This document shows positions 33,651 through 64,000 of a stretch of 64,000 nucleotides of DNA, one piece after another. Both the position numbers and the translations under genes were made by a program. The notes beneath the pieces are model-generated. The model saw only the letters and a program-made list of their open reading frames with translations, ran no database searches and had not been told where the DNA came from. Every line of letters starts with the position of its first letter. The first letter of the stretch is position 1. Source of the stretch: Umbilicaria muhlenbergii (lineage: Eukaryota; Ascomycota; Lecanoromycetes; Umbilicariales; Umbilicariaceae); assembly GCA_000611775.1 (NCBI GenBank), contig KK106983.1:3034808-3098807 (forward strand), read 5' to 3'.

Positions 33651-33855
33651 ATCAATGAAAGCGTTGCCCTCCAAATGAGTGAACGTGATCGTATTCTCTC
33701 TGTTGACTATCTGAAGCCGGTGATGGTAGAACCGGATGAATGATTTGCAGAGAGGATAATATTACTAAGGGGGATAAATGAGCGAGACTGTGCCGCACGG
33801 ACTACGGAGCGAGCTGCAGGGATCAGGGCAGGGAGATGAATTTCCGCCCCAATCT

Positions 33856-33907
33856 ACTTGTGGCCGCACAGAAGCCGGCTAAAAGCTTTGAGCAGATTTG
33901 CAACATC
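33856..33907 (+). repeat. Duplicated exon fragment, right copy
   Basis: Short copy of the surface-protein exon at 28,783-28,835. It lies about 200 bp beyond the NOD-like receptor start and exactly at the change from GC-balanced to AT-rich sequence. Confidence 0.55.
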
Positions 33908-34848
33908 AATTCATCTTGTCTTATCAAGTTTTCCTTGAAAGAACTTCTTCATCATACTGACAGTAGACAGACAAAGCCCTTGCAAACTTACTCTGAATAA
34001 ATCACTGCTTTCTCAAGTAAAGAATCCTCTCTCCATATCATGACCTTGAAGATGTACTAAACATGTTTGTAAATCTCATCTTTGGTAAGAGGTTAGAACT
34101 CTATAAATTTCTTTAACATCAGTGATTTGCTATTGTATACCCTGAAAAGTTTCAAAATGCTACTTTTTCCCTCAAACTCAATTATTTTTTAGTTTATACC
34201 CCTTCCTCAGAATAGAGATCTATAGACTAATTTTAAGTGTTTAATTTATATGTTTCAGGCTTAAATGTCTTTGAAAGCTCTGTTTTTGACTGCTCTTCTT
34301 GCAGTGAATATGAAGTACCCCTCACCCGCGCCCTCCTGTCAAAAAAAAAAAATAAAGCACGTCATTTGCGGTTGAATAGTTAAAAAATAACTCATAGACT
34401 ACATCAACTGTAGTATTTCTTTGAATTTCATTAAGTTAAAAGAACAGTTCTGACAATGAGAGGTTTAAGAAAACTTTTTAAGTGTTAAAGAAACATCTGA
34501 CAAGAAGGAAAAAACTCAATTGTAAGAGAAAGTGCTTGAGAAAAGAGGAAGTAACTTGAAGATTACATGTAACAAGCTTTAAGATTTTCAAGAAGAAGTT
34601 AAAGTTTGTATAATGTCAATGAAGTGAAGATTAAGATCTTGTTAATTAATTTATTTTATGCTTTTAAACATTAATTACATGATGAGGGTATAGAATAAAA
34701 AATAACTGAGTTTAAGAAAGAAAGTGACATTTTAAAACTTTTCAAAATATATATAAGCAGATTATCACTTTAACATCATTTACCTCCTGTTTAAGAATAA
34801 AAACTAATTACTTAAGATCAAGGTTTTTATCTTCTCAGGTTATTGATT
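33908..34848. other. Start of AT-rich block, no gene
   Basis: About 940 bp of AT-rich sequence without a reading frame of note on either strand. It contains an A-run near 34,345 (aaaaaaaaaaat). No repeat shared with the rest of the block was found by eye. It is probably eroded transposon sequence. Confidence 0.4.
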
Positions 34849-34855
34849 TGTGAGC

Positions 34856-35310
34856 TGTGAGCATTCAGTGTACAGAACTCATCAGGTGTTAGTTCAGAAT
34901 AGAAAAAATTATATTTAACAACAGCATGACCTTGTGAAGGTAACTTTCACTAGTGAATCAATCTCATGAGGGAGCTCAGTCAATAGACATCACTCTCAGC
35001 ATTTCATGAAAGTGATTAAAGAAGTTAACATCATTGATGACATCTCATAAAGATGTGATTCAGTAATGAACACCTCATGAAGACAGCTTCACTGAGGTGA
35101 CTGCTTCATGAGATCTTCCTCAGGCAGGCTAACTTCAGAAGGAATATATTATGAGGTTAAAACATGTCTCACTTTTTTTCTTAACAATAATTCTCTACCT
35201 ACTAGCAATATCATATTATTGTGAATCATCAATTATAAGTTTAAGTCATTATTGTCACATAGCTTCATAATTCCTTAATTAAGATATTACCTCACAGTAG
35301 TACACTTACA
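34856..35310 (+). repeat. Element A 5' LTR (455 bp)
   Basis: Begins TGTGAGCATTC and ends ACACTTACA (TG...CA). It matches 41622-42056 plus 48659-48678, and the LTR of element C at 48684-49131. Confidence 0.88.
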
Positions 35311-38300
35311 GTTTTATTGCTTCAATTCATTGTAAGAATGCTGTTCAGCAAGAATGATTAAAAGCTCATGAGCTCCTCAATCAACCTTCACAACAATTTC
35401 ACAAACTACTTCAGAAACTTCATAAGCAACAGTTAATGATGATTTTATCATTTTTAACTCTCAGTCATGACACGCCACTTCTACATTCTCTGAGGAGTTC
35501 ATCACAATGAATATCAAAATTCAACTTGTGAAGATTCAACTCATGAGTGAGAAGGAACATACTAGGCAGACTGAGCTTAAAACTTATAAATGATTTACAT
35601 CAGATTTATCTTCAGCTCTGAAACACACCTGCTATGAAAAGTGAGTCAAAGATGAAAACCTTTATCATACAAAGGACTACCCTCACTTTCAGCAGTATGT
35701 ACATCAAATTGAGCACCTTCTCATGAAGCTTCACCTTGAAGAGTCAGATTGATATCTGAACTACAAGATTACAGAGTGATGAGTCACATATTGTGAAAAA
35801 AAGAGCTTAAAAGATACCTGAGAAAGTCAGAAGAACTTTTTAAAGTCTCTTTTAAAAAATTATGATAATCAAGTGTATAACACATGAATGAATTAAATGA
35901 ATTGTCACAAGCTGAGCAGTGAATCTGATGATGAGTATCTTCACAGGTCAGATAAACTTCTGACATAAATAAGAAATGAGATGAAGAATTATCATTAAAT
36001 TCAATTAATGATCTTCTTCAAGGGCTTGAATCACATCATGAAGCAGAAGATTCATGAACACTCTGTGTTTTCAAACTCTCATGAAGATTTGATTACACTC
36101 ATGAAGAAACTTCATCTCAGCATCAGGACTGAAACTCACTCATGAGTAATAATCATGAACAGTGACTTCAGCAGAAGCACCTCTGTGAACATCATGAAGC
36201 AGAAAGATCACAAACTTACAACATTCATCATCATTACATTACATAATTCAGAATCCTCATGAGGAATGTTCTTTAACAGAGACTGCAACTACTGTGATAA
36301 ACATGAACATAAAGAACTGAACTGTCTTAAGAAGAAGTCAAACAACACTGTGAGCAGAACTCTGTCAACTGATTTAGTTAACAATAATAATCATGTCACA
36401 GCAGTCTCTGAGGCTATCATGAAGATCATCATGAAGTTAAAATCAGAGAAGAGTGCATCCTTTAAAACAGAGACATGATTATGACTTGCAGTACATCTTG
36501 CAGGAAAATCACTTTCAGCTGTTCTTAATAATGTTAATGACCTCAATCTCCTTTACAAGAATATTGTGAAGGGCTTATCTTCAGTCTTTAAGATGTTATC
36601 ACTTCATCATGTTGAAGAAGATACCTTGTGAACTTATTTTGTTTATCATGAAGTAGTAAAGGTTCAGGACTCTTTCAGAGTCTGAAAATAAACTTATGAA
36701 TCTTTTACCTCTGCTGACTTAAAGATGCCAGTAATCTTAGAATTATCATGATTACAATGAAATAATCTGAAGGTTGACTTCATCAATCTTACAGTACAGT
36801 GAAGGTCAGATGCAAAGAACTCTTTAATGACTTCATTACTGAAAAAGATCATCATAAAAGGCCTCATGAGAAAACTTAAAAACCTTAAGATAAACTACAT
36901 GATGCAGAGATTGCAGGTGATAAATTTTAATGAATTGAAAAACTTCATGAACCTGATTCTTGAAGCTTACAAGAGCCTCATGAAGATCTTTTTAAAAACT
37001 CAAGTGAAAACTCTGCCTCCTCATCACAAAAGAGATCACTCAATTAATCTGCTGAAGAAAACAACATCATCTTTTGACCTTATGTACAACCTTTTCATGA
37101 AGGAGTTGACTGTATTATGAGAGTATTTGAATATCAACCTCATGAATGAGTTTATTCAGCTGTCATGATCTTTTACAGAAGCATCAGTGTTCTTTGTATT
37201 TAAAAATGATGAAGGCTTGCAGCTCTGCATGAATTATCAGAGGTTAAATGTTATTACTTAAAAGAACTGATACCCTCTATCATTAATTAATGAGATCATG
37301 AATCATGTCTGTGATGCTCAGATCTTTATGAAGATTGATGTCAAAAACACCTATTATCACATTCACATACATGAGGGTGATGAGTGAAAGACAGCCTTTC
37401 ATACTAGATATGAATTGTATGAATATTTAATTATGCTTTTTGAGCTTATCAATGCTCCTGTGAGTTTTCAGTCTTATATTCATGAAGTTCTTCATGAATA
37501 TTTAAACATCTTCATGATTGTATTCCTGAATGATATACTGATTTACTCAATGAAAGAGAGTCAGCATGAACAGCATGTTCAGATTATCTTGAAAGCTCTG
37601 CTCATAACAGAGTTGTTCACAAAGCTTTTTAAATACTTATTTAATGTGAAGCATGTGCCCTTCTTGAGATAAATTATCACAGATACAGGGGTTGAAATGA
37701 AGATGAATCACATATTCATCATTATCAACTGATCAGAGTCAGAAAGTGTGCATGAAGTGTAAACATTTCTGAGCTTCATGAACTTTTATTAAAGGTTCAT
37801 ACAGAGCTTCTTGTGTATCACTGCACCTTTCATGAAGATCATTAAAGGGTTTAATGCAAAATCAAATAAGAAGTTAATCTCACAAAGGGCAGGCTTTCTG
37901 TCTTTGAAGACACAGACTGCCTTTAAAATTCTTATATGAACTTTCACTACTGCTCTGTTCCTGCAGCATTTCAACATCACATTATCAATACAGCTTGAAA
38001 TGAATGCCTCAGGGTATGTGATTTCAGGCATTCTCTCACAAAAGCATCTTGATGAGTGAAGAGTTACAGCCTATTTCTCATGAAAGATGATACTCATGAA
38101 ATGAAAGTATGAAACTCATGATGAAGAACTGCTCATGATAGTTGAGAGTTTTCATCATTAACAGCATTATTTAAAAGGATTCACTCATTCAGTTGAGGTG
38201 CTATCAGATCATTCAAGCTTGTGAAGCTTTATAATTACTCATAAGCTCTCATGAAGACAGATTTAATGAGTGTTGACTTTATCAACTTATAATTTTGTTA

Positions 38301-40499
38301 TCACTTATTGAAAGGGAAATCTGAATTCTGTTAACAGCCCTTTATGAAGACCTGATCATTAATGTGAAGTAGAACAAGAGAATTAAATTAAAAATATTTT
38401 AATGTTGCAACAGATGCTGTTCCTGACAGTAACTTTAATTTCAGTTGAGCTTAAAGATAATTTATTAACTCAAGAGGTACACCTTCATGAGGTATTAATT
38501 ATGAGCACAACAAGTCCTCAGCAGTGAAATCAACAGAAACAGGCCTCTGAGGCTGTTTTAAATAAAAGATCTTATGAGGAGGTTAACATTTTTCTCATTG
38601 AAATGTTACTTGAGTTCTTGCAGATTGATCCCCTCATGAAGCATATGCTGAAACAGATCACTGCTCATGAAGTTAATTCAAGAATGTCAGGTTCTCACTC
38701 ACTCTGATCATGAAAAAATGATCTTTTATACTTTGACTCAGTGCTTTATATACCTCATGTGAAGTCATTATGACTTAAGATTATTAAGAAGCATCATGAT
38801 GAGTCACTTGCAAGTCACCTCATGACAGAGAAAATCTTTGCCCTGATACATGCAAAGTACTACTGACTGAACATGCAGAAGCAAATTCAAAGTTACTGTA
38901 ATTCTTGCCTTATCTGTCAGAGAGTCAGAGTTATTCATGAAAGACAACTTGAATTATTACAGCTCATATTTATTCTGAAGAGACCTTGAGAGGTACTCAT
39001 TCTAAACTTTATAACTGATCTTTCAGAGAGCCATGCTTATGAGGGTGTGTATGATGTCATATTGATGATGATGTGCAAATTCTCAAAAATGGCACATTAT
39101 ATTTCAGCCAGAAAGAACTGAACTGCTGATCAACTCACAGAGACCTTTGTTAAAGAGATTATTAAACTGCATGAAGTCACTCAAGCTTTAATTTCAGATT
39201 ACAGATTTGTTTTTACCTCATGACTCTGAGTCAACCTGATGTTCATGTTGAAGATTAATCACTGATTGAGCACTGCCTTTCATTCACAAACTGATGAGCA
39301 AACTGAATAACAAAATAACACACTGAAACAGTACCTGTGAAGTTATGTCAATTATCAACAGAACAATTGAGCCTCACTTTTAATATTAACTGAGTTTGCA
39401 TACAACATGAGTTTACACTCTTCTACTGAAAAGACACTGTTTGAGGTTGTCTATGACTTCATATTTAGATCAGATATGCTCACTGTGAAGGAACTCATAA
39501 AGTACTCTGCAGTTAAAGAAATTATCACTGAAGCTGAGCAGCTTGTGAAGCATCTTCATAAGACTTAAATAAAAGTCTGCAGAGCTCTTGTGAAGTCTCA
39601 AGAGTATCAAGTTAAACATTATAATCAGTCTCACCTTGATGTGACTTATAAAGTCAGACAGTTAGTCTGATTAAAAGTCAAGAACATAACTCTGAAGTGA
39701 TTTTCATGAAAACTGAATTGACAGTATTATGAACTCTTTCAGATTGTAAAGAAGATTAAGAACATTACTTATCAGCTGAAACTACTGAAGGAACTTTATA
39801 TTCATGATGTGTTTCATGTTAACCTGCTTCACAATCATAAATCATGAGCAGATGAGGATACATCAGAGTTTAAATTACTTCACCTCATGAAGAACTCAGC
39901 TGAAAGGGAGTGAAAGATTAAGATTATAACAACCTCATGAATTGTGATCAGCTCTGAGGATAAACTTGTTTTATAATATCACATTATGTGAAAGAAATTC
40001 TCAAAGATTACTTAAGAGCCTGTGAATAACACCTGCAACTTTAAGAAATTAATTAAAAAGTTTCATGAGGACTTCTCTGAGACTCTGTGAGTCATAATCA
40101 ATGTTGATACATGTTCATGAGGAAATTAAACAAAGGGCTAAGATCTCTTCTGCTCATTAAAGCACTAAACTACTGAAGAACTGAAAATGAAATCACTTCA
40201 TGAAGTCTGAAGGCTCATGAAGGAATGAGTCATGTTGACTTTAATTTATCAAGACTTATTAATTCTTAACATTATGAAGAGATTCAACTCAGAGTTAAAG
40301 TCCTGCAAGAAATAAACTCTCACAGGAGCTGATATTTATCTTTAAAAAAACTTGAACATCTCAATCATCATCAGTTTGTTGCAGTGATATTTCCCTTCAA
40401 TGAAGCCTGTGAGTCTTCACCTTCACAGAGGTGTTGAGTTTAAACAGCAGCTGCAGCAGCTTTATAAGTCTTGCTCACTCAGCATTTTTTCTGCTTACA

Positions 40500-41210
40500 C
40501 GCCTTGCGCGCCTCCTTGTGACCCTCAGGGTCAGGGTTGACTGAGGGCAGAGACAAGAGCAGAGGTGAACTCAGTTCCTGTGAAGAAGATGATGAGGCTG
40601 AAGGTGACAGAGATGAAGCTGCAAATGATTAACAAAAACACTTCATGAAAATGTATCATAAAGTCATACAAAGGAAGATGCAGGTCTTGCTGATGTGCTG
40701 ATGACACTTCATGCACTTGATGATGTGAGGGGAGAGGAAACAATTCTTAAAACAGTTAAGATTGCATCTTGTGATGACAACAACACATGATTCACAGGCC
40801 TGAGGAGGGATGTCCTCAGTCTTTATGATTATTATCATGAAGGTCAGTTGTGAAGCATTCTCATGAAAAGTGATCATGAAGATCACTTATAAACTGTCTC
40901 ATGATCTTGTTCATAATCAGTGAGCTGAACAAGCTGCTGTGAGATGATGTAATCATGAAGCTGAGCCTCTTCATGAAGGGCTACCTCATGAAAGGTTTAA
41001 TTATAAGGGGCTGAGTCAAAGGCCTGCATGAACAGAGGAAACAAACAAGAATCACAGATGATTTGCTTAAGAACATTAATAATGTGATTAATGCAAAGCA
41101 TGATGAGCTGTACTGCTGTTAGTGAAAAGACATCATGAAGGCAAGCATCATGAAGACAAGCATCACAGGAGCAAAACATCATAAAAAGCATCATAAGAAT
41201 CATTATCATG
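40500..41210 (-). other. Antisense cysteine-rich stretch in element A
   Basis: Between the chromodomain-like end and the polypurine tract, the strand opposite to pol has coding-like character. Around 40,656-40,886 it carries closely spaced cysteines in pairs (ACESC, RCNLNC, KCMKC), suggesting a zinc-binding protein. Sequence at 40,490-40,560 keeps CpG and GC content better than the flanks. It is decayed along with the element and is described only as a fossil part. Confidence 0.45.
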
Positions 41211-41607
41211 AACTTACCTGATGAGGGTGAGAGGATTGAAGTTGCAAAAGTTGCTGACAGTGAAAACTCTGACCTTATGACTCATGTGAAGTCATTCATG
41301 ATGCTTAACAAAGTGAATCTGAATGACCTCATGAACAGCTGAACAGGCTTACAAATGAGCAACAATCATCATGAACACTGAGTCAGTGTATAAATTAATC
41401 ATAACTTCACAAACATCTTGTGAAGGGAGACTCTTTTTCTCATTAAGTTTTAATGAGCTTCACAACATATTTTTTTTTACAATTTTAATTTTTTTTTTCT
41501 GATTTACAGGGTCATTTTTTTTACTATTACTGATGCATTGTGAAGTGCTTCTCAGTGAAGGCTTGCAACTGTGAACATCATCATACTCATGAGGGCATGA
41601 GCCTTTG

Positions 41608-41620
41608 AAGGGGGGGGGTA
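41608..41620 (+). other. Polypurine tract of element A
   Basis: gaagggggggggtaa lies directly before the 3' LTR start at 41622, the position expected for the plus-strand primer of an LTR retrotransposon. Confidence 0.75.
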
Positions 41621-41621
41621 A

Positions 41622-42056
41622 TGTGAGCATTCAATGTACAGAACTCATCAGGTGCTAGTTCAAAATAAGAAAAATTATACTTAACAACAGCACAGCCTTG
41701 TGAAGGTAACTTTCATTAGCAAATTAATCTCATGAGAGAGCTCAGTCAATAAACATCACTTTCAGCACTTCATGAAAGTGATTAAAGAAGTTAACATCAT
41801 TGATGACATCTCATGAAGATGTGATTCAGTAATGAACACCTCATGAAGACAGCTTCACTGAGGTGACTGCTTCATGAAATCTTCCTCAAGCAGGTTAACT
41901 TCAGAAGAGATATATTATAAGGTTAAAGCATGTCTCACTTTCTTTCTTAACAATAATTCTCTACCTACTAACAATATTATACTATTGTGAATCATCAACT
42001 ATAAGCTTAAGTCATTATTGTCACATAACTTCATAATTCCTTAGTTAAGATATTAC
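41622..42056 (+). repeat. Element A 3' LTR, main part
   Basis: The first 435 bp of the 3' LTR. The last 20 bp lie at 48659-48678 after the nested element B. 435 + 20 = 455 bp, equal to the 5' LTR, which fixes the insertion point of B exactly. Confidence 0.88.
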
Positions 42057-42489
42057 TGTAACGGGTGATGTCATAGTGACGGGGATAGTACAATCATTCA
42101 ATGAACTATATCAATGTTCATCTAATCACAGTGCTTGGTTCAATGAACTACTGATCACATGTAGACTTGAATAGGCTAGAAGGCAGTAGACTTATGAGAT
42201 TACATTTGATACATGAGTTGAGCACAAGCTCCTAACTATGAATCTACCTGTGATTATATAATACTTTAAAAGACTCATGTGTGACTGTACTGCTTTATGT
42301 GTGTAATCTTACTGCTCAGGGTGCTCATGCCCTGAGCATCATGAGCAGTTGAGTGCTTGAGGTGCTCATGCCCTGAGCATCATGAGCAGTTGAGTGCTTG
42401 AGGTGCTCATGCCCTGAGCATCATGAGCAGTACCACATATACACCTGCTACATGTACTGACAAGGTACTGTTAAGTGAGAGGTGTAACA
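42057..42489 (-). repeat. Element B LTR, 3' copy in element orientation (433 bp)
   Basis: TGTAACGGGTGATG...GGTGTAACA. Contains a 41-bp tandem array. Same length as the partner at 48221-48653. Confidence 0.88.
42312..42432. repeat. 41-bp tandem repeat inside the element B LTR
   Basis: Nearly three units containing ggtgctcatgccctgagc and atcatgagcagttgagtg. Each unit holds an imperfect palindrome (gctcatgccctgagc) that could form a hairpin. The same array occurs in the other LTR at about 48,476-48,596. Confidence 0.8.
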
Positions 42490-42599
42490 CTAGCTTCCTC
42501 CTCAACATTTTCATCCTTGAAAACTCAACCTTTTCTATGCTTTCATTTGATATTAAAAAGAAGAAGTCATTCACTTTCTGTCATTCTCATCTGACTGAT

Positions 42600-43080
42600 T
42601 CAATCATCAAGAATGGATGAACTGTCATGTGAACATGCAGTCACTGCCTAACTGATGGCAAGGAGTGTAAGGTGTCAGATGATTGTGATAAGTGTGATGC
42701 TTGCATCAAGCTGAGCATCTTCTGCGACTTGTTCATATCTTCAGAGGAGATCAATAAGGTGAGTGTGAAGATTCATCACCTGAAAAAGAAAAAGGATGCC
42801 GTCATGACACAAAAGTGAGAGATGAGGGTGAAGAAAGAGAGACTTCACAAACAGATCACTTTCTTAAGAAAGAAACAGTCAGACTTGATCTGTACTGAAC
42901 TTCAGAACATTGAAGAGTTGAAGATGAATGAGCATGCAGCTGCTGTGACTGCTGATTCTTTTATTAAGCCTTCACTCAACTTTCTTGCACTTGAGGCTTT
43001 CAGCTTCAGTGACATGAACTGACTTCCTGCAGGTTTCTTTGATGGAACTGACGCAGTTTCACTGCACAATGAGTGAGATT
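42600..43080 (+). other. Antisense cysteine-rich stretch in element B
   Basis: On the strand opposite to pol, between the end of pol and the 3' LTR, a coding-like stretch has a zinc-cluster-like spacing of cysteines (CSHCLTDGKECKV, then CDKCDACIKLSIFCDL) followed by a Lys/Glu-rich probable coiled coil (VKKERLHKQITFLRKKQ) and ELQNIEELKMNEHAAA. Similar C-x2-C plus coiled-coil proteins are, from memory, common as orphan predictions in fungal genomes. Treated here as a fossil part of element B. Confidence 0.5.
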
Positions 43081-46000
43081 TTCCTCTGATTCTCATGTGT
43101 TTCCTCCACTGTCATATCCTTTTCATTTGATCAAGTAGTGTGACTCATCATTTATGTTTTGCTGATCTAGAATATCTTCTACCTTGAATTCAGCATCTTG
43201 ACTCTTCAGGTTGATCTCTGATGATTTCTCTTGTACTGATGTTTCCAGGTCTGCTGGTTTGAGTAGTGATACATGAAATACTGAATGTATTCACATAGTG
43301 GGTGAGAGTTCAAGCTCATAGTTGACGCTTCCCTTAATCTTTGCAATTCAAAAAGGTCTCAACTTCATGTGGTTCAATTTATTGCTAGGTCATTTAGTCT
43401 TGATATTGTGATGTAGAAGGTATACTTTATCCTCTTCTTTAAGAGTAGGTCCTCTATCTCTCTTTTTATTATAATATATCACTGATCTTTCTGAGGCAAA
43501 TCTGATGTCTCTCTGCAGCATTTCATGCAGGTCCTTGAAGTGATTCACTTATATTCTTGCTCTCTGTGCTATTGTTACTAATCCCCTGACCTCATTCATA
43601 GCCGGGTTGAAACTGTAATTGATGTAGAATGATGATACTTCAGTTGTCTCTGTTGCTGCTGAGTTGTATGTTAACTGAGTTATCAGTAAGAGTTCTACTC
43701 AATTAGTTTGCTGATAATTAACATAACATCATAAGTACTGTTTCATGATTTGATTTAATTGCTCTGTCTGCCCGTCCGTCTGAGGATGATATGATGTTGA
43801 TAACTTGTGGTGTATTCCCAATTGGTTCACCAATGATTTTCAGAACTTGAAGGTAAAGAGTTTATCCTTATCAGAGATTATCTCCTCTGACAGTTCATGA
43901 TTGACTGCTATAACTCTTAAAAACATGTATGTGAGTTCCTCTGCTGATGATGCTTCATTATAAGGTATGAAGTATCCGTACTTCATAAGTTTATCAGTGA
44001 TAATTAATATTGAATCATAGACTGCTTTCATCAGGGGTTCTTTCAACTTTGATAACTTAATCATAAAGTTTAATGCAATATTCACTCATGGTCTCAATGA
44101 TGTTCTTGATGACTTAAGTAAATCATATGACTTATATTGATCTGCTTTGCTTCTTCAGCAGATGTTGTATTTTTAAATAATCTCCTCAACCTTTTTCTTC
44201 ATGTGAGGAAAGTAATATGTCCTTGTGAGTTGTTCTATCATCTTGTCAATTCCTTGATGATCATGTGTTTTGTTGAAATGACTTTCTTTCATTAGTTTCT
44301 GTTGAAGACTAACAGGAATGTAAATCAAGTCTTGAAAAAGTAATAAGCTTTTCTCCTTTTCAAATCTTTCATGATCTTTAATATTCTGAAGAACCTGCTG
44401 TGTTAGCTTATCATTCTTCAATGCTTTTCAAATCTCATTTTCAAAAACATCATCCTCAACCTGTATGATGAGGTTGAATTGTCTGTTGAAAGACATATTC
44501 TCTTGCTCATTCTCTTGAAGGATAGCATGACTGATGACTGACTTATCTTGTAAGTAATCAGCTCATTAACTGAGAGCATTCACTTTGATGTTCTTCAATC
44601 CTTTTTGATAATGAATTCTGAAATTGTACTGTAATAATTCTTCTGACCAACGTACCTGTCTTCAATTTAAGACTTTCATTGTTGTGAAATACAACAGATT
44701 TTTGTGATCTGAGTATACCTGAACCTCATGTTTAGGTCCTTTCAGATACACATGTCATTGTTTAAATGCATCAACAATAATTAACAGCTCCTTGTCATGT
44801 ATCTTATAACTCATTTCAGCGCTTAAAAACTTTCTTGAATAAAAAGCTACTGGCTGTAGACGTCCCTTATTGTCTGATTGATTGATGCATGCTCTTATAG
44901 CTCCGTCTGACGTGTTCATCTCAAGCGTAATAGGTTTCTCAGGGTTGAAACTCATGAGAATTGATTGAGAAGTGAATCTCTTCTTCAACTCATTGAAGGC
45001 TTTCTGTGCTTCAGGTGATCACTTGAATTTCTGATCTTTCTTGATCAACTCTGTTAAAGATGATGTGAGTTTTAAATACTTTTTGATAAACTTCCTATAG
45101 AAGTTTGTGAACTCAAGGAAGGACTGTACTTCCTTGACATTCTTTGATATTGATCATTCAACCACAGATCATATCTTCTCAGAGTTCATTTGTAACCCTT
45201 CTGGCGTTACAATGAAGCCTAGGAAGTGTACTTCCTTGAAATGAAAAAGACTCTTCTCAGGCTTTACCTGTAGTCCTGCATCTTGAAGTGCTTGTAGGAC
45301 TTTTCAAACATGCTGAACATGCTGCTTCTTCATTTTGAAGTAGATCAGTATGTCATTGAGGTAGATGACTATGAACTGATCTAAGTACTCTCACAACATG
45401 TTATTAATAAAAGCCTGGAAAGTTGCTGGCGCGTTTGTCAATTCAAAAGGCATTACCAGGTACTCATAGAGTCTGAACCTTGTTCAGAACACTGTTTTTC
45501 ATTCATCTCCTTCTTTGATATGAATCTGGTTGAAGGCTCCTGAAATATCAAACTTGGTAAATCATTACGCTCCTTGAAACTGATCCTGCAGTTTCAAAAT
45601 GAGCAGCAAAGGGTAACTGTTCTTGATGATAATGTTGTTTAATGCTCAATAGTTGACACACAACCTGAGTGAACCATCTGATTTTGGCACAAACAGTATT
45701 GAATATTCAGCTGAAGATTGTGATTCCTGTATGAATCCTTTTCACAAATTCTCCTTCAAGTATTCTCACAAAGCATTTAACTTCTGAGGTGACAATGAGT
45801 AGATAGATTGCTTTGTTGGCGTGTAATCTTTCATGATCTTAATTTCATGATCTCATTCTTAATGTTTCAGCAAGGCGTCCTGATCCTTTACAGTCATAAA
45901 CAATTCTTCAAAGTCTTTATATTCTTTAGGGATAGATAACTTGATAACAGAGTCTCAGTCATCATTGATTCACCTGCTTCACAGTATCTTTGCATCAGGA

Positions 46001-50427: not shown

Positions 50428-50469
50428 TGTAATGAGTGATGTCATAGTGACTGAAGTAGTACTGTCATT
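50428..50469. repeat. Scrap of a second element-B-type LTR
   Basis: tgtaatgagtgatgtcatag onward matches the first 42 bp of the B LTR. It is cut short by element E. Confidence 0.6.
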
Positions 50470-53435: not shown

Positions 53436-54217
53436 GGGGGGGGTGCGGCGTTGCCTATCCTGCGGCGTTGCTGGGTACATTACGTTACACCAAAAGATAC
53501 CAGATACTCCCTCATGTTGTGGAACTTCAACATTCGCTCAACCTTCGTCACCCCCGGCCCTTGGAGTCCACAGACTGCTAGCCGTTGGCTGGACCCGCGT
53601 GATGACTGCGTTGCTTGTCTGCATCGACACTTGCCTTCGTTGCGTGCAAGGCCAGGCATACCCAGCCATGGTCGATCAGGGCGTAGTACGTTCACTTGCG
53701 CCTTGGGTAAGTTAAGTCCTTTAAGGCAGATTCGCTGCCTTCAAAGTCTAGGATGAGAAACATGATATGGCACGAAAGTGAACGCTATCAGGGCGCAGCT
53801 CCTTCAAACACCTTGCAGAATAGCCATCTCTCGCAGTTAGACTCCTCCAGGTCCAAAGACTGCAACAAACAGTGAATATGTGAAGGATCCTACTCGAATG
53901 TCCATTGGCACCTCATGCGGTCCTGATGATCCACGGTCAATAATCATATGACTAGTACGGAGCCGTACACCATAAGTCTTGACTCCTTGGCATTGTAGCA
54001 CTACTGCATGCGCCATGCAGGTCGGGTGCAGGGGGGGTTACAGGGGGTAGAGCAGGGGTAGAGCAGGGGTGTGAATTTTCGCTCAATCTTGATATATTGC
54101 GGAAGAAGCGGTTATAGAGCGCAAGAAAGGCGGCTATAGACTGAAGAAAGGAGGGGATATATTTCTTTAGTTGCCTTCATAGCTAATTAGTTAGAATAGT
54201 TCATAATAATCATCATT
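53436..54217. other. Left part of GC-balanced island
   Basis: About 780 bp with normal GC content and CpG inside the AT-rich block. Short frames at 53,431-53,756 show no recognisable domain. Near 54,030-54,075 a G-rich repeat (gtagagcaggg, twice) precedes the transposase region and may be the eroded left end of the transposon. No matching inverted repeat was found on the right. Confidence 0.4.
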
Positions 54218-55782
54218 ATGGTGGCCAAATCACATGATACAGGGACCAGAATTCAAGCTCTGGCTTTAGCAGAGTATGGTGCTCCTACAGCAATTGTGGC
54301 TGACGTAACTGGCTTATCTGCACGGTCAATAAATCGCCTAAAGCAGACTGCTCAACAGCGTGGGTTTGAACCAGAGAAATCAAAGGTTATACTCACCAAA
54401 CATGTGGAGGACGCCCCTTGATCTGGACGCTTTAAGAAAATAACCTCAGAGCAGGAGGAGGACGTTGTCAAGAGGGTTAAAAAGGACTGTTATGGCAGGG
54501 AGATGTCTAGTGCTGAATTGAGTGCTGTATTCAAGCTTTCTCCCATGTCAGTGCTTTGAATTCTTCATAAAAGCAGGCTTCACAAATGAAAACCGACCTG
54601 GAAGCCTGTTTTGACGCAAGACATGTGAAACCACCGCCTTGCTTTCACTGAAGCTCACAAAGACTGGATCATAGAGGACTGAAAATGAGTCATATGAAGT
54701 GATGAAACTAGCGTTATACTGAATCATTGACGAGGGGGGTTAGGGTTTGGCGTACTGCTGAGGAACAGTATGACTGGACTTGCATTTGACGGTGATGAAA
54801 GGGAGCCTCTGAATTCATGTGGTGGTCCTGCTTCTCATATGACAAGAAAGGGCCCTTTCATATATGGCAGTCAGAGACAGCCGCTGAGAAGTTTGCCAAC
54901 AAAGAAATAGAGAAAATGAATAGAGCGCTGGAACCAAAGGCCAAAGAAGACTGGGAGATTGCAACAGTCATGAGAAGAATGAACTTGACCTGCCCTGAAA
55001 AGCCTCCTGGATGAGCTCCTACCTGGAGGTTCAATGAGGCAAATGGAGCAGTTGTACGGAAGAAAGGAAAGGGGGGTATTGACTGATGGCAGTATCAGCA
55101 GCATATTCTTAAGGACAAGCTCATACCTTTTGCTCAAACATGTGCCCGAAGTCGCCCTGATACTCTCATTCAAGAAGATGGAGCCCCTAGCCACATGTTC
55201 AAACATCAGCAACAAATCTTTATGGATGCTGGAGTCCTCCGCCTGATATGGCCAGGCAATTCTCCAGACCTTAATCCCATTGAGCCCTGCTGGCCCTGGA
55301 TGAAGCGTCGAACCACCAAGAAAGGGGCTCCCCGTAACCGTATTACCGCTAGTAAGGCGTGGACGAAAGCCTGGAGAGACCTTGAGCAATGGCAAATTCA
55401 GCGCTGGATCAAACGAATTCCTAGGCATATTCAGCGAATTATTGAGCTGGAGGGTGGCAATGAGTATCAGGAGGGCCGTGTGGATGGAGACTCTCACCCT
55501 TGAAAGACCAATCGACGACGGACCAAGGCTCCAGATTCTGCTGGACAAGCCAGTCAAAACCCTGAGCCAGTTGAGGCTACTCCTTCTCCTCCTTCTCCTT
55601 CACCTTCTCCTTCATCTCCTCCTTCCTCTTCTCCGCCTCCTCCTCCTTCATCAGAGCCACAATCACCCTCTCCTCCACGACGAAGACGAGTTCCTAGAGC
55701 CAGAGCAGCGCCAGCAACAGCAACAAGGGCTCAGGCCCGCAAGGGTGGTCGTCCACGTGAGGGCAGTGAGGTCCTGAACTAA
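54218..55782 (+). mobile_element. Tc1/mariner-type DNA transposon, broken transposase
   Basis: One frame carries a helix-turn-helix start (ALAEYGAPTAIVADVTGLSA, then RSINRLKQTAQQRG) and a DDE_3-type catalytic end: S-DETSV near 54,697, QEDGAPSHMF near 55,180, and WPGNSPDLNPIEPCW near 55,250. The catalytic acids are therefore visible. After the core the frame continues as a Pro/Ser-rich tail and a basic AT-hook-like end (KGGRPREGS). Numerous in-frame TGA codons interrupt it; at the conserved WSDE motif the Trp position itself reads TGA. A frame shift near 54,800 is likely. Inverted terminal repeats were not identified. Non-functional. Confidence 0.8.
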
Positions 55783-55810
55783 TGACAGCGGCGTTGACGA
55801 GCCAGCTGTT

Positions 55811-55885
55811 ATGAGGGCGGCGGCGGCGGCGAGGCAGTGAGGCGGCGGCAGGGAGGCGGCGGCAGTGAGGCGGCGGCAGTAAGGC
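55811..55885. repeat. GGC-rich microsatellite
   Basis: Repeats of ggcggcggc with gaggcagtga units directly behind the transposase frame. Strikingly GC-rich within an AT-rich block. Confidence 0.7.
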
Positions 55886-56271
55886 TTGAATTCATGATCC
55901 CTATAGGCGTGTTAGCATGCTTAGAATACGTTGAATTGACTCACCAATTCGATAACAAAAAGCAGTTCGATTTTCACGATTTTGAAAGAATTACTTACGG
56001 CTCCGTACAGCCAAGCGATATCCATGGCGATCGTGGCGTAGCTGTGGCTGGGAGCCTCAGGCTAGCCTATATTAGTCATCCCGAGTCAACGCGTATTGCC
56101 TCCTCCTCATCCCTTAGCCAACGTTCAACAACCACCCACATTCCTCCAGCCAGTACTTTTACCACGTCGAGTTAAACCGCCTCTTGAGACATAGTAAACT
56201 CTTACACCCTCTTGCAACTCCCTGCAGTTGAATGACCTATTTCCGATCGGTCAGGTGCATGTTGCCACGAG

Positions 56272-56639
56272 ATGGCTAATGTCTTGCAAGATGACCGCAT
56301 CGTCATCGAGAAGTATCCTTTAGAACACTCTCTAGATCATTTAGGGGACGCACTTCGAAAGGCAGAGGAATTTCACGATGCAGCTGATGATTCCTCTGAT
56401 CAAGCACGGCGAAAAGCAGCATCTGGACTTCTCGTTGCTTTAATAGGTAACAATGGCACTATAACCCATATTGCTCTTTGGGCTTCTATATTAACAGTCA
56501 AATTTAAGTAGGCTCAGAAGCATCCGGTCATCTTGGCTCAAAGACTGGGAACCACGATGTTGCTTCTGACTTATTCAGACTCCGTCAACGTGTGCAGAAG
56601 GCAAATCATGATTTTTTATTGCAGAAAAGTGAATTTTAG
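56272..56639 (+). CDS. Small two-exon hypothetical protein, apparently intact
   Basis: Exon 1 is 56272-56446 and exon 2 is 56512-56639, joined by a 65-nt intron with GTAACA donor and AAGTAG acceptor and exact phase. The product is 100 residues and I do not recognise it. The first 60 residues are Asp/Glu/Ala-rich and helical (LDHLGDALRKAEEFHDAADD, SSDQARRKAASGLLVALIG). The second exon gives SEASGHLGSKTGNHDVASD and FRLRQRVQKANHDFLLQKS. No signal or membrane segment. It lies in the GC-balanced island between a dead transposon and retrotransposon fossils, yet shows no stop in frame. It could be the surviving start of a longer, truncated gene. Confidence 0.5.
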
Positions 56640-57645
56640 CAAAAGTTTACTTATTATAAGTTTTACTGTTATTATAACACTGTGTGTGTACTTGTTTAAA
56701 CAATTGTTTTAATAATTATTTTTTTATCACAAAATTTTGATGTTCTGCTCAAGATTTAAGGTTGAGCTTAAAGCGCTCAGAAGGTGCTAAGAGCAGCTGT
56801 TAACTGAGACATGAGATCAGAAGCTCAGAGCGCTCAAAGTGTTAAAAATTAACTTAAAGTTAACTTGTTAAATTGCTGATGTCACATGTGATGATAAGAG
56901 ATCTTGTCATTTATGAAACAACTGATGAAAGCCTGAGTTTACTCTTAAGGAATTTAATTTGAACTTTACAAAATGATGATTCATTTGTAGAAGTAACATG
57001 CAACGCTGATTATACATCAGTGAAGTGCAAGGCTAAAGCTGAAAGTCTTTAAAGATTTAACTTCAAAGGCCTTTTATTTCATGTGGAACAAATATACATT
57101 TCAGAAGAAAAGTTAATAAAAGCAGAGATTTTAAAACATCATGATGATGATGTCTTGACAGGGCATTTCAGGGTAAAAAGAACTTTTAAATTAATTAATC
57201 ACAAATATTATTAAATTAATATAAGTCAAGATGTTAAAGATTATGTTGCATCATGTGACATCTGTTAAAGAGTAAAAGTGCTTAAACATCATCCTTATGA
57301 TGAGCTACAGGCGTTGCCTCAGTCAGAAGAATCATGACAGCAAGTCATAATGAATTTTATCATTAACTTGTCATCAAGTAAGTGCAAGAATTGCATTTAT
57401 GATGTGATCTTAATGATTATAAATCAGTATATGAAAATGACTCAATATATTCAAATCATGAAAATGATTACAGCAACAGAGTTAGCTGACTTATTCTATG
57501 AGGAAATAATATGCTGATTTAATGTATCAAAAGAGGCTGTCTCTGATTAAAGATATTAAGATCATGCAGAGCTCATTATGCAGATATGATAATTAAGAGA
57601 TTAATTTTAAGAAGTCATTAAGTGATGAGCAAAACTACATATGTG
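56640..57645 (+). mobile_element. Fragment G: Ty3/Gypsy integrase remnant
   Basis: From about 57,000 to 57,600 the plus strand keeps traces of the RNase H-integrase spacer, an HHCC-type zinc-binding region (HHDDD, GHF, CDIC) and the integrase core (MNFI near the first acid). No LTR is found on its left. AT-rich and heavily decayed; a fragment only. Confidence 0.55.
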
Positions 57646-57719
57646 AGTGTTGCAGAATTAGCTGAACGCGCTAAACTCAATCAAAAGTTAATGTAAATTA
57701 CTTAATCTTATCATGCTTT

Positions 57720-59001
57720 TAACATTACCCCCCTCTCTGAAAAAGCATCATTCATGATGTTGCTGCAAAAATAACATTAAAATGTAACACCCTTGCCCTG
57801 TTGCCTTGAATGACTTAACTTTAGCATAACTTGTTGAGGTATTTATAATGAAATTCCTTCAGCACTTCTGTTGAGCTGTTAAACTCACCTTTGTCTGCAT
57901 AATATCACTCATTATTGCAGTCAATTTCATGTTATTTGACCTTGTATTGAAGCCTGTCATGATATCATCTTAAGTTAAGAATATCATCAACCTCTTAATG
58001 CTCCTCCTCATCTTTCATCACAATGAAAGTCAGTGAGGGTGTATGCTGACCTGAAAGAGGATCAGTGACACATGAGTGAAGCAACTTGAGGCTGAAGATG
58101 TCATGAATTCACATGATAATAAGTAGCTTCAGTTGATAGGCGGCTCTCACTCATTCTTTAACATGAAACAGTCTCAACTGCTTGTCTTTCAGGTCATGAC
58201 TTAATCATGTGATTTTAATGTTACAGCTTAACAGTCATATCATGTCTTTTACCTCATAGCTGACATCCTTTCAATGTTTATTCACTTGTGCTTTTATAAA
58301 TTCCCTGCTCTTCTTCAACTGCTGCTTACTGAAATCAAGAATTTTCTGCATGTGAGTTGTTATGTCCTTCACCTTCACTGACTGAAGTCATTCACGGGTG
58401 AATTCATAGGTAGTAGTGTCAGGATTAAAACTCATGCATGAGTGAAAGCCTTTGTTAAGGTAGAAAGGTGAGAGTGAGGTCATTAAAGAGCAGTTGTTAT
58501 TATCACTGAACTTAATCATAAGCAATCATTTCACTCAGTCATCTTGCATGTAGTTACAGTATGTTCATAAACTCTGTTTGACATCTTGATTGATCTGTTC
58601 AGTTTGGCCGTCAGTCTCTGAGTGATAAGCAGTTGATAAGTTAGCCTTGATTTTCAGATGTTTACACATACTTCATCATAAATTTAAGATAAACTGAGGG
58701 CCTCAGTCTGAAGTAATAAAGCTGAGCAGGTCATGTAAGTGATAAATGTTTTATAATATAAATTATATTAACTTCTTCATTGAGGTTCCTTCATCTCTTA
58801 AATGACAGAGAACATAATGCCTTTCTTTAAATAATCTGTCAATGAGGATGCAGATAGTGTTATAGCTCTTTGATATTAACAGTTTAATTATAAAGTTCAT
58901 GACAACATTCTGTCAGCATTGTTGCAGGATAAAAAGTGACATCAGAAGTTCATTAATGACATCATGAAGTGATTTACTTCATTAACAGTGATGACAGTTT
59001 C
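57720..59001 (-). mobile_element. Fragment H: Ty3/Gypsy integrase remnant with polypurine tract
   Basis: On the minus strand the integrase core with the GQTE-type motif region is near 58,600, and its C-terminal part runs to about 57,800. At 57,727-57,740 a polypurine tract (minus strand gagaggggggtaatg) precedes a probable 3' LTR start TGTTAAAAGC at about 57,723. The LTR's other end was not found. The right side is cut by element F at 59,002. Confidence 0.55.
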
Positions 59002-59218
59002 TGTTACAACATGATCAATTAACACTGATGAATATTAAACTACCTGATGTTAAATTAAATTGAGATTAGTGTGTCTTGACACTCTGACATTTATGTTGTG
59101 ATTACACTTACAAGACTGCTTCCTTCTTTGTACTTTTTTAAGTTCAAATAACTCATCTCTTGCAACAGTTGTAGGCCTGCTTATGAAGTGAAATAATTAA
59201 TTATAACATTAGAAAAGT
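59002..59218 (+). repeat. Element F 5' LTR (217 bp)
   Basis: TGTTACAACATGATC...TTAATTATAACA. Reverse complement of the element E LTR, allowing for about 10 bp of length difference. Confidence 0.78.
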
Positions 59219-62200
59219 ACCTACACTCTTTTTGACCTCTGAAGGTGACAGAATATCAGCTGAGATAAACATGTATATTAATGAGAAAATTCTTCCTCAA
59301 TATCATCAAACATCTCAACTCACAGTCTACTAAGTGATCAGGAGATTCCTAGAACATTTTAAATTTATTAATTAATTATCAACAATCAATTCTCAAGTCC
59401 TGTGAGAAGTAAGCAATGAATGATTAAGAAGTACTCTGTCACAGTGATAAATAATTATAAGAAGCAGTCACAACAAATGAAAAGTTCTGCAATATGTAAG
59501 CACCCTCAAAGACTTATTTGTAAGCACAGACAACTGCAGTAGAGGCAGTTAAAAGAGCAAGATTCTGAATTGAATAATCTCAGCATTAAGAGTTGATGTC
59601 TGAAGCACTGAAGAAATCATGATTAAATCACACTGAGAGGAAGAGATCTTTTCTTAATCTGAAAGATTATCCTTGACTGAAGAACAGCCAGATGATCATG
59701 AGAGATTAAAAACAGTAAACATTATGAAGATGAACTCTTGAGATGAGGTGACTCCTGAAAACTTATAATGATGAGCAGCACATGATCTGAAGAACACTTG
59801 TCATTTAATGTTAAAGATGTTAAATCAGAGAGATTCATACAAGGCACAGATACAGAATTTAAAAGAACAGAATAATCAGAAAAACTCTCAGATAAAAAAA
59901 TTAACAACTGAGAAACAAGAACTGAAACAGAATATGTTGAAGTTAACTTGATGATTTAATAATTCTGAAGCAGAGTGATCAAGAGAAGACACATTTAAAT
60001 TAAACATGAGTGACACAATGAAGAAGCATTCAGCAAAGTTTTCAGATTCATTAATTCTGAATGATGATCTTAAGCTCATGTTTCAGGTATGAGATGATCA
60101 GATGAAGAGCAAGTTATTAATCAATGATGATTGATTCAATCAGTCAGATCAAGATGAAGCTGAACATGTTAAAATGACTTACATCAAGATGTGAGTTAAC
60201 AGCAAGGCTGCTGAACATCTTTATTCATGACTGAAGGCTCAGTCAAGAAGAGAGATTTATATTAAGAAGATTATTCAGTACCTGAAGAACATCTTCAAGA
60301 ATTCAGATCATCACTTGAAGACATGAGAGCAACTGAAGAAGTTCAAGATGTCTTATTTTAAAAACTTTAACATGTTTCAGTCAGAGTTTCTATAACTGAT
60401 GAACTCAGTGAAGATGTCAACAGATCAGTGAAAAGAGGAAATTCATGACAAGTTATATAACTCACTTCAAGTTCAAATGAAAATCTATGTCACTGATGAG
60501 GACATGTCATTTGACACTTATTATAAAAAGGCTCAACAGTTCATGAGAGATCTTGTTAAAGTAAGTGAAAGAATTAAGAAATGAAAGAATCAGCAGAAGC
60601 TGCAGAGAAAATAATCAACTTTTAAATTTAAAAAGAAGATAATCACCACAATCACTGCTGTTGCATGAGAAGCAATTAAGTTAATGTTAATTAACATAAC
60701 TTATTATATTTATAATAAGAAAAAACACCTGATGAGGAATTATCCTGATAAGTTAAAGAAAGCTGAGGCAAAGACTGTAAACTCTGATCATTCAGATTTA
60801 AAAAATGAGCTACTTTAGATGAAGTCTTCACTCTAAAGTCAATGAAAGAAGCAAAGATAAGCAAGATGAAAATGTTAAACATTTTAAAAAGATCATCATT
60901 GACTTAAGATTATCAACTTGCAGTCAACAACTTAATCATAAAGGTAGCAGCTCTGCTAAACATCAGTGTTGTTGAAAAGACTTTCATTCACAAGAAGCAC
61001 TTTAAATTTGTGAAAAAGCATCTGCAGTTATACATCAGGACAGCACAGAGGTCAGTTCTCTTAACAAGATATAATAATCAAAATGCTGAGGTGATCTTCA
61101 GAGCATTTACAGCAAATTTAATGATTAATGAAAAATGAATCTCTACTCACTTCTTGTTTTATGACATCAGCAGGCATGATGTTCTGATTGAGAGAAAATG
61201 ATTCAAGAAGACTAAAGTATTAATTGATTATTTTAATTGAAAGCTGATTTGACCTGAGGAGGCTCAATATCAGGCAAGCAAGAACTTAATGATATTAAGA
61301 TGAGAATTACAATTATCAAAAGTCAAATCAGAACATTAAGCAAATGCTGAATGACATAATAATCTGCATGAAGCAGCAACATCAACTCAGATCTTAAGAA
61401 GAGCAGAAAGAGATGAAATCATAATAATGTTTAATAAAGCTGACCCTGAGGATACTGAACATTCAACAAGGTTAAATGAGTAAAAGAAAAAGTTCATGAA
61501 ATCACTTAAAAAGTCAGTCCTGCAGCTACAGGCACAATCAAAGACATGAAAAACTCAACAGCAGATTAACATTAATGAGATGAAAAAACAGCTGAATGAA
61601 AAGAAAGGTTTAATGAATCACATGAGTAATTTAATGAATGAAGGTCAAAGTTCATTAAATGTAAAGAAATCAAAGGATCATAAACCTCCTCTTTATCAAG
61701 AAGTGAATATTGCACTTCTGAAAGCAGAAAACTTCTTACACAATGTCAGAAGAGAAGAGATGATTATTAATGTCATTAACATTCATGAGGTTAATCACTT
61801 AATAAAAAACTGAAGAAATCCCTGTCTGCTGTTGCAGAATAAAATGAAGTTGAATTAAAAAGTAAAGGAAAAATTACCTCATCAGTATTAAGAGTTTGTG
61901 AAGGTTTTTAACAAGACAGCATCAGATCAGCTGCCTTTACATAAGAAAAAAGTGAATCATGATATTATCTTGAAAAATGAGAACAATCTGACCTTAAGTC
62001 TCTTGTACAGCATGTCACTGAAGCAGTTGAAGTTAATCAAGACTTACCTTGAAAATCACTTGAAAAAAAGTTTCATAGTCCTTAATGATGCTCCTTACAT
62101 GTCATCAGTTCTCTTTGCAAAGAAACTTGAAGAGGGGTGATGTTTTTATGTTGATTACTGAAAGCTTAATGTAATCATTAAGAAGGATAAGTACCCCTTG

Positions 62201-64000
62201 TCTTTAATTGAAGAGACTTTAGCATGACTGATTAAAGTAAAGGTTTTTATCAAGCTGAATGTTAAGCAGGTGTTCTACTGAATACAGATGAAGAAGTTTA
62301 TCAAGAATTTAATCACCTTTCAAATGAGGTACAGATTTTACAAATACAAGATTTTATTTTTCAGCCTTTGCAACAAACTCACCTCCTTTCAGAGGTATAT
62401 TAATGATATCTTATTCAATTATCTGAATGATTTCTGCATGATTTATGTGAATGATATTTTGATCTACTTGAAGGATCTGTTGAAACATGATGCTCAAGTT
62501 AAAAAAGTGCTTCAACATCTTAAGAAAGCAAGCCTACAAGTGAACATAAAGAAGAATGAGTTCAACATTCAATTTATCAAGTTTCTGAGCTTCATCATCA
62601 GCACTGAAGATATTATAATGAACTCAGACAAAGTTTTTGTCATCAAAAACTGACTGTTATTAAAATCAGTCAAGGAAATTTAATCCTTCTTAAGATTCTG
62701 CAACTTTTATTATTACTCATTAAAAAAATGAGGTTGAGTTGTACATCTGTTGACAAAGTTGACTGCAAAAGGGGCCTGACACCTCTTAGAAGAGCTGAAA
62801 ATTCAAGTTTTTGAGAAGGTAAAAAAGCTGATGTTATCAGATGTTATTCAAGCTCATTACTCACCTTATTTGAAAACTTGAATGAAGACAGATGTCAGCA
62901 GTGAAGTTGTTGCAAAAGTGCTCACTCAACAACAGAAAGATGATAAGTGAAAACCTGCAATTTACTTCTCAAAGACAATGTCACCTGAGGAAATGTGATA
63001 TGAGATTCATGACAGAGAGATGTTAGCAGTTGTTAAAGTCCTTCAAGAATGACATGACATGTTATTAAATCTACAAGCAGCTCCTTTTGTCACAATTACA
63101 GATCATCATGTTTTAAAGTACTTTATCATCAAGTGATTACTTAATTCATGACAAGCTAAATGAGCTGATATTGTGACAGACTACAACTTCAAGATTACTT
63201 ATTACTCAGAAACAGTCAACATTGTTGTTGATGCTCTGACAAGAAAACATGATGAGTTGATCACTCAGAAAGAAAAGAACATCACTGCATGAACACAGTT
63301 ATTTTTGAATTCTAATTACATAATAACTGCAATAGATGAGGGTTCAATGAATGTTGAAAGTGATTCACTGAATGAGACTGAACAGGTGAAAAATTCTTAT
63401 CAGCTGATGAATCAGATTCTGTAAGTTAATCACTTTCGTGAATCACTGAATCAGTGTCATCAGATGACAAGAAAGGAGGAACAAAGCTGAAAGTTTTAAG
63501 ATAATCTTTTTACATGATTTGAGAAGCTCATGATGCTGAATGTTGATGCTTTGCAGACTCATTTAATTAATGAAGCTCATTCAACACCTGTGATGATACA
63601 CTCAGGCAAGATTAAGATGACAAAGCTGTTGTCAGTTCAGTATTACTGATCAGGTCTGTCAAATGACTGTTCAGTTTTTATTTTAAACTGCTGAACATGT
63701 CATTAAATGCACATACTCTGAGACAAGACCTCAGGCCTACTTCACTCTTTATTAATTGAAGATAAGTGCTGACAGCATGTCTCATTCAACTTTAAATTCT
63801 TCTCACAGGACAAGAAAAGCTTTAATAATATATTTGTTGTTGTTGATCACTTTGAAAAAAGGGTCTTCTCACTGTCATGTCAAAAGACAGTTACAACAGC
63901 TCAAGTTGTGCAATTATATTATAAGTACATCTGAAGAATCTATGAAACATCTGAGACAACAATGTCAGACTGAGGGCCTCAGTTCATCTCAACATTCATG
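59002..64000 (+). mobile_element. Element F: Ty3/Gypsy fossil running off the right edge
   Basis: 5' LTR 59002-59218, then a leader, a gag capsid-like region about 60,080-60,640, a decayed knuckle region near 60,700, reverse transcriptase about 62,050-62,700, RNase H about 62,850-63,250 and integrase from about 63,500 to the window end. Same family as element E, opposite orientation. Broken in many places by the same transition-type decay; the 3' end lies outside the window. Confidence 0.8.

Follow-up and report, generated by a model that had tools for sequence, protein, structure and literature searches.

RIP-like C-to-T decay of repeated DNA at 5'-C-(G/C)-A in the genome of Umbilicaria muhlenbergii

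Introduction

Which kind of mutation turns the repeated DNA of a fungus AT-rich while CpA and TpG stay in place? The question is raised by a stretch of 64,000 nucleotides of Umbilicaria muhlenbergii (Ascomycota, Lecanoromycetes; GCA_000611775.1, contig KK106983.1), here called the window (G000:C3:3034808-3098807), which lies within a genome of 34,788,950 bp in 7 contigs and consists of a gene part (positions 1-33,850) and an AT-rich block filled with repeats (33,850-64,000). An earlier note, made from the letters alone, described in the block a decay in which CCA/TGG and CpG were lost and CpA/TpG kept, and suggested as its cause a genome-defence mutator with altered sequence preference, unlike classical repeat-induced point mutation (RIP).

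In Neurospora, RIP follows the order CpA>CpT>CpG>CpC (PMC5496416; this and the other published sources cited here were available in part, and statements on them extend to those parts). In the present study the composition of the block was compared with that of the gene part, copies of transposable elements from the whole genome were aligned in order to polarise the changes, and the genome was searched for DNA methyltransferase (DNMT) genes. The mutated cytosine was found to be chosen by the two bases that follow it, and a RIP-like mutator directed at repeats is regarded as a likely cause.

Results

Composition of the decayed block

With both strands pooled, CpG/GpC is 0.18 in the block and 0.89 in the gene part, TpA/ApT is 0.67 and 0.72, and (CpA+TpG)/(ApC+GpT) is 1.58 and 1.22, respectively; TpA thus does not exceed ApT, and CpA/TpG is kept, as had been claimed. 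For trinucleotides, observed/expected values in the block and the gene part are 0.29 and 1.14 for CCA/TGG, 0.10 and 1.09 for CGA/TCG, 0.31 and 0.69 for CTA/TAG, 1.27 and 1.00 for CCT/AGG, and 2.35 and 1.10 for TCA/TGA. The described loss of CpG and CCA/TGG with retention of CCT/AGG is therefore real, and so is the abundance of TCA/TGA and of the hexamer TCATGA, which has 142 occurrences in the block and 12 in the gene part; for the block, base composition predicts 10 and a second-order Markov model 72. The depleted set differs, nevertheless, from 'CCA plus any CpG', as the base at +2 counts: CGA is more mutated than CGC, CGG or CGT, the remaining CpC are less affected than CCA, and depletion extends to CTA.

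The contrast is equally sharp along the sequence. In 1-kb tiles the sum CCA+TGG+CGA+TCG amounts to 52-92 per kb (mean 73.3) in 33 gene tiles and to 0-10 (mean 2.5) in 26 decayed tiles from 34 kb, 20 of which hold three or fewer, while the mean of TCA+TGA rises from 32 to 92 per kb. The edge lies near 33,880, where 121 bp with a GC content of 0.57 and 8 CpG are followed by 244 bp with a GC content of 0.34 and no CpG, and the gene DNA adjoining the block shows no such decay in its tiles. The notion of a uniform block holds for 26 of the 30 tiles past ~33.88 kb and fails for the other four, a lightly mutated island (53000..57000; GC 0.41-0.53 per 1-kb tile) that contains 129 of the 182 CpG sites of the block. 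It separates a decayed AT-rich stretch (33880..53000; 250-bp and 1-kb tiles, di- and trinucleotide counts), in which C(G/C)A and CpG are nearly gone and TCA/TGA is in excess, from a second one with a like signature that runs to the end of the window (57000..64000; tiles).

Target context in polarised copies

Differences between copies of repeats are almost exclusively transitions. This applies to 27,053 of the 27,563 pairwise differences among nine full-length long terminal repeat (LTR) elements, to all 291 differences between the Tc1/mariner copies L038 and L041 (289 with C/G in L038) and to 192 of 193 between L038 and L040 (185 with C/G in L038). In window-only pairs and in the nine LTR elements the preference for the +1 base appears weak, as the most wanted sites are already exhausted there. 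With these sites gone, composition alone is insufficient to reveal a mechanism, and the context was resolved by lightly mutated Tc1/mariner copies. L038 (G000:C2:6573474) and L039 (G000:C1:164636) are 1.6-kb copies that differ at 5 sites and are almost unmutated; set against variously decayed relatives, the near-pristine L038 gives polarity without any reconstruction.

Three light pieces were compared with L038, namely the window copy (L037) as well as L042 and L043, which resemble two halves of a single element split by ~15 kb. Altogether 113 of 1,622 cytosines turned into T. With respect to the +1 base these were 51/256 before G, 48/454 before C, 9/480 before T and 5/431 before A, and with respect to the +2 base 76/382 for A, 14/388 for G, 14/464 for T and 9/387 for C. 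The effect of A at +2 is found with each of three +1 bases: CGA was hit in 32/74 cases and other CpG in 19/182, CCA in 34/150 and other CpC in 14/304, CTA in 6/44 and other CpT in 3/436; CAA was hit in 4/114. Taken together, C(G/C)A was mutated in 66/224 cases vs 5/431 for CpA, and 20,000 shuffles gave C(G/C)A a maximum of 31 events and CpA a minimum of 14. The base at -1 made little difference (T 35/471, A 25/287, C 28/455, G 25/408), and swapping the reference to L039 shifted the class counts by at most 2. The earlier reading, C-to-T change at CCA and CpG on both strands, is thus supported by the alignments in its direction and strands; the target is better described as C-(G/C)-A with an effect of the +2 base.

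The same context recurs in other copies. In the heavily mutated L041, CCA was changed in 69/70, CGA in 30/36 and CpA in 29/202 cases, and whichever of the five copies was set against L038, lightly or heavily mutated, CpA ranked lowest among the +1 classes. All polarised counts derive from two transposon families that are related to each other; in the second Tc1/mariner family, ~70% identical to the first, three copies compared with L044, assumed to be the least mutated, gave CGA 32/76, CCA 50/160, CTA 6/47 and CpA 7/563, with a less certain polarity, as 16 transversions also separate L044 from L046. In neither family, therefore, do changes of CpA to TpA dominate the alignments, which the earlier note had named as the finding that would speak against it. 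A like order, A>G>T>C at +2 and G>C>T~A at +1, is seen in the remaining variable cytosines of the LTR family, near saturation.

When a logistic model was fitted to positions -5 to +5 (4,377 sites and 424 events from seven comparisons, L041 left out), dropping the two 3' bases cost most: twice the difference in log-likelihood (2dlnL) is 368 for +2, 324 for +1, 26 for -1, ~16 each for +3 and +4, and at most 9 for the others. As 17 events are common to L037 and L042, the events are not all independent; among private events C(G/C)A leads (9/94, 13/45 and 11/49), and CpA or CpT without a following A is lowest (1/375, 1/224 and 0/154). Both strands are affected, C>T and G>A being present in all eight comparisons with totals that are clearly unequal only in the related copies L046 (7/22) and L048 (13/29) against L044 (P 0.008 and 0.020, uncorrected).

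The consequences for coding DNA can be read from the 16 TGG codons of the main transposase frame in up to five copies, where 37 mutated codons comprise 33 TGA, 4 TAA and no TAG. CpA-type RIP would yield TAG first, so that the absence of TAG among 37 argues against it. The conserved Trp codon of the WSDE motif (54695..54697, + strand; copy alignment) indeed reads TGA in the window copy, as had been noted, and the other five copies compared have TGG once and TGA four times.

Two specific alternatives were rejected on these counts. CpG-only methylation and deamination is incompatible with CGA at 32/74 vs other CpG at 19/182 and with CCA at 34/150; mutation of the Microbotryum type at TCG is incompatible with a -1 T that is not deciding (35/471) and with 48/454 mutated CpC.

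Occurrence in the genome and detection by indices

The mutation process is not confined to the block of the window, as six 10-kb samples taken arbitrarily from other parts of the genome carry the decay signature in 15 of their 60 tiles. The ratio of substrates to products, (CCA+TGG+CGA+TCG)/(TCA+TGA), was calculated in 236 one-kb tiles, with classes cut at 0.2 and 1: it is below 0.2 in 109, above 1 in 117 and between in 10. The distribution is two-humped, with medians of 0.018 and 2.18 in classes themselves defined by that ratio. In all 109 decayed tiles, the mean GC content of which is 35%, TpA/ApT is at most 1.05. The RIPper thresholds (TpA/ApT raised, CpA/TpG index lowered; taken from PMC7882544) were reached in none of the 236 tiles, 109 of them plainly decayed.

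The sequence L031:4400-5700 (G000:C1 ~2,004,400-2,005,700) stands apart, with 18% GC, as low as 12% per 500 bp, short AT tandem repeats, a TpA/ApT of 1.06, and CCA/TGG/CGA/TCG at 0 vs 51 TCA/TGA; an Rfam search of L031 gave no match. It represents either the extreme of the decay or AT-rich DNA with a different origin.

Dependence on repetition

Repeat families are mutated and the examined gene DNA is spared. A possible influence of length comes from the second Tc1/mariner family, six internal deletion derivatives of which (L052-L057), resembling miniature inverted-repeat transposable elements, keep both ends in 299 bp each. Four of them (contigs C1 and C5) are identical, one carries 2 and one 10 C:G-to-T:A changes, and the four full-length copies of 1,356 bp differ pairwise at 26-64 sites. 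In Neurospora the minimum repeat length for RIP is ~400 bp. The contrast of 299 and 1,356 bp is compatible with a length threshold, if not a clean one.

Methyltransferase genes

Of the two kinds of gene that the earlier note had proposed to look for, Rid and Dim-2 type methyltransferases, a DIM-2-type gene was found and a RID-type candidate is named by exclusion. The genome contains four PF00145 matches. The DIM-2-type gene, a frame of 1,323 aa, matches PDB 9bap (a DNA (cytosine-5-)-methyltransferase of 1,456 aa) with an E value of 1.1e-178, and its match to BAH lies slightly below the cut-off for that domain. PDB 9bap is presumably Neurospora DIM-2. At G000:C4:3522938 two frames that can be joined by a GT-AG intron form the putative RID-type gene, a label for which we also lean on a motif that we take to be characteristic. 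A DNMT5-type gene contains a methylase followed by SNF2, and the fourth match is an old partial duplicate of it (L028:3880-4818; G000:C1 ~6,526,880-6,527,820), stop-broken, with 79% identity to L027 over 956 bp and many transversions. The DIM-2-, RID- and DNMT5-type genes are candidates for encoding the mutating enzyme, between which sequence alone does not decide.

This duplicate was considered as another polarised pair and dropped, with 56 transversions in 180 differences and C>T (34) hardly exceeding T>C (31). Its contexts are weak (CpC 20/90, CpG 20/99, CpT 15/110, CpA 15/127; CCA 6/38), and the divergence of L027 and L028 looks ordinary and old.

Elements of the block and neighbouring genes

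The block contains an LTR element of gypsy type, classified by eye only (34856..42056, + strand; sequence read and repeat comparison), with LTRs at 34856-35290 and 41622-42056 that differ by 33 transitions and no transversion; the LTR has at least 40 scored matches in the genome. A second LTR-like element (42057..48653, +; repeat comparison), with terminal direct repeats at 42057-42489 and 48221-48653 that differ by 30 transitions and no transversion, abuts the first one exactly, and a partial extra copy of the first family (48679..50426, +; repeat comparison) begins 25 bp later; the arrangement is a nested or tandem insertion. Further downstream, an inverted repeat has arms of 1,110 bp (51691..52800, +, paired with 62890..63999, -), which differ by 147 transitions and 5 transversions. 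Between the arms lies the lightly mutated Tc1/mariner-type copy L037 (54200..55850, +; copy comparison), the frames of two relatives of which elsewhere match DDE_3 and HTH_Tnp_Tc3_2. Elsewhere in the genome, contig C6 ends (G000:C6:2235196) within an LTR of the studied family and contig C4 (G000:C4:4557220) less than 200 bp from a Tc1/mariner copy; the ends of both contigs may therefore be repeats rather than telomeres.

Among the ordinary genes of the gene half are those for a COP9 subunit 6-like and an RPC31-like protein. A frame of 844 aa (29792-32326, - strand) at a distance of ~1.5 kb from the block edge combines DUF7779 with many tetratricopeptide repeats in an architecture like that of NOD-like receptors.

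Discussion

The account regarded as likely is a RIP-like, repeat-directed C-to-T mutator acting at 5'-C-(G/C)-A by means of a re-targeted DNMT-type enzyme. Repeated DNA would be hypermutated from C to T at 5'-C-(G/C)-A-3' on either strand, most likely by an enzyme with RID as first and DIM-2 as second candidate. The cytosine would be chosen by its two 3' bases, with G > C >> T > A at +1 and A >> G, T, C at +2, and transitions would pile up, with C(G/C)A running out almost completely first and CpG/CpC after it. The predicted end product is AT-rich DNA rich in TCA/TGA, with CpA and TpG kept. A duplication trigger, premeiotic action, RID as the enzyme and 5-methylcytosine as intermediate are parts of this scheme that we infer. 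Of the genome-defence mutator proposed earlier, the altered preference is supported, and a defence triggered by repeats is plausible rather than demonstrated.

Several observations weigh against this account. In the light pieces polarity is imperfect, as besides the 113 transitions with C/G in L038 there are 9 of 122 in the reverse direction and 3 transversions. Strand-wise runs, sought as a sign of a single round of RIP, were absent from all eight comparisons, in which the order of C-to-T and G-to-A events does not depart from random (lowest P 0.053). L038 and L039 are nearly unmutated although repeated; this pair has moved recently, the mutator has not yet acted on it, and repetition alone is not yet a trigger there. 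The derivative L057 carries its 10 C:G-to-T:A changes in 299 bp and so blurs any length threshold. For the decayed sequence at 33,880-34,123 a genome search, which skips common words, gave no second copy, and its decay could reflect leakage, older repeats or a copy missed by the search.

The strongest competitor dispenses with a repeat trigger: DIM-2 or another DNMT would methylate C(G/C)A in heterochromatin during vegetative growth, and 5-methylcytosine would deaminate slowly. The presence of DIM-2- and DNMT5-type genes, the random interleaving of events on the two strands and the decayed block DNA for which no other copy was found suit this explanation. It accords poorly with the 289 C-to-T changes and 0 transversions in one copy, which suggest a brief rate far above background, and with the identity of four of the six short derivatives; spontaneous deamination, moreover, does not actively target repeats (PMC4014442). 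We consider it rather unlikely, though to be taken seriously. A combination of two processes, CpG methylation of DNMT5 type with deamination and a separate CCA mutator, could draw on the DNMT5-type gene and on CpG being the most mutated dinucleotide (51/256 in the light pieces), yet the effect of A at +2 is common to CGA, CCA and CTA, and the whole of it is accounted for by one enzyme that reads +1 and +2; two processes are accordingly improbable.

Base-composition bias, biased gene conversion or a deaminase of the APOBEC kind would share the C-to-T bias as such. Gene DNA beside the block is unaffected, and the context lies 3' of the target (2dlnL of 324 and 368 at +1 and +2 vs 26 at -1 and no more than 9 at -2 to -5). 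AID/APOBEC enzymes read bases 5' of their target, and this whole group of causes is very improbable. Ordinary CpA-type RIP at an advanced stage, which would fit AT-rich, transition-only decay of repeats and the putative RID-type and DIM-2-type genes, is refuted by the polarised contexts, with CpA mutated least in each of the five copies set against L038, TpA/ApT not above 1.05 in 109 decayed tiles and no TAG in 37 mutated Trp codons, and its probability is next to nil. The process works like RIP and may be a member of it; canonical CpA RIP is excluded.

The RIP-like mutator proposed here can be set beside known systems. Like RIP of Neurospora crassa (by RID, and by DIM-2 in old heterochromatic repeats), it is accompanied by C:G-to-T:A decay of transposons to AT-rich blocks and by a DIM-2-type gene and a candidate gene of RID type; its order of CpG>CpC>>CpT>CpA, with a strong A at +2, is nearly the inverse of that in Neurospora. 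In Trichoderma reesei CpA ~ CpG are followed by CpT>CpC (PMC5496416), and the preference of RIP for dinucleotides therefore varies; CpA ranks at the top in that species and at the bottom in U. muhlenbergii, and CpC ranks last and second, respectively. Paecilomyces variotii (Eurotiales) shows RIP by experiment and a two-part genome with AT-rich transposon remains (PMC6300479), but with a bias from CpA to TpA and with AT-rich parts of ~20% GC, against the mean of 35% in the decayed tiles of U. muhlenbergii. The RIP-like mutation of Microbotryum (Pucciniomycotina) at TpCpG (PMC5381629) also has a trinucleotide target, in which the 5' T counts (TCG to TTG), whereas in the present case the choice lies with the 3' bases (CGA to TGA) and extends to CCA; basidiomycetes are described as being without Dim-2 (PMC7862722), and a DIM-2-type gene is present here, which by itself makes an ascomycete host probable. 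The CpG-biased mutation of Rhizoctonia solani AG8, as well as CpG methylation with deamination, shares with the present case the loss of CpG; in R. solani the bias for 3' G is moderate and genes are mutated too (PMC4014442), whereas U. muhlenbergii has unaffected genes in the DNA examined and CCA among its main targets. CpA, CpT or CpG are reported for Tuber, Botrytis, Magnaporthe and others (PMC4352252) and CpA with CpT for families of Colletotrichum truncatum (PMC6180176), while the available passages on the low-GC transposons of Coccidioides contain no mutation contexts (PMC5872316).

The order CpG>CpC>>CpT>CpA with A at +2 matches none of the compared systems. Targets written as CpCpA, CpNpA or CpHpA were absent from the literature matches listed, although subscription literature such as Clutterbuck 2011, reportedly the main survey of dinucleotides, may hold the pattern; for CpGpA the one instance among the matches listed is the complement of the Microbotryum TpCpG. 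A survey of the fungal kingdom from 2025 describes RIP-like defences as sharing a CpA preference (PMC12543289), and RIPCAL was, according to its authors, not built to detect trinucleotide bias (PMC2621366).

Conclusions

On balance we lean towards a mutator whose target has moved from CpA to C-(G/C)-A, reads two 3' bases, turns Trp and Arg codons into TGA stops and leaves CpA/TpG intact, so that indices built on CpA are blind to it. Surveys of RIP lean largely on TpA/ApT and on depletion of CpA/TpG, and decay at C(G/C)A escapes these standard tests; the ratio (CCA+TGG+CGA+TCG)/(TCA+TGA) could screen all fungal genomes at once. If the proposal is true, fungi scored as free of RIP may use a C-(G/C)-A mutator, and evolution would be able to alter the target specificity of RIP through the RID/DIM-2 enzyme. 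Should an enzyme of RID or DIM-2 type indeed have this different, sharp target, comparison would allow the residues behind the sequence preference of RIP to be mapped.

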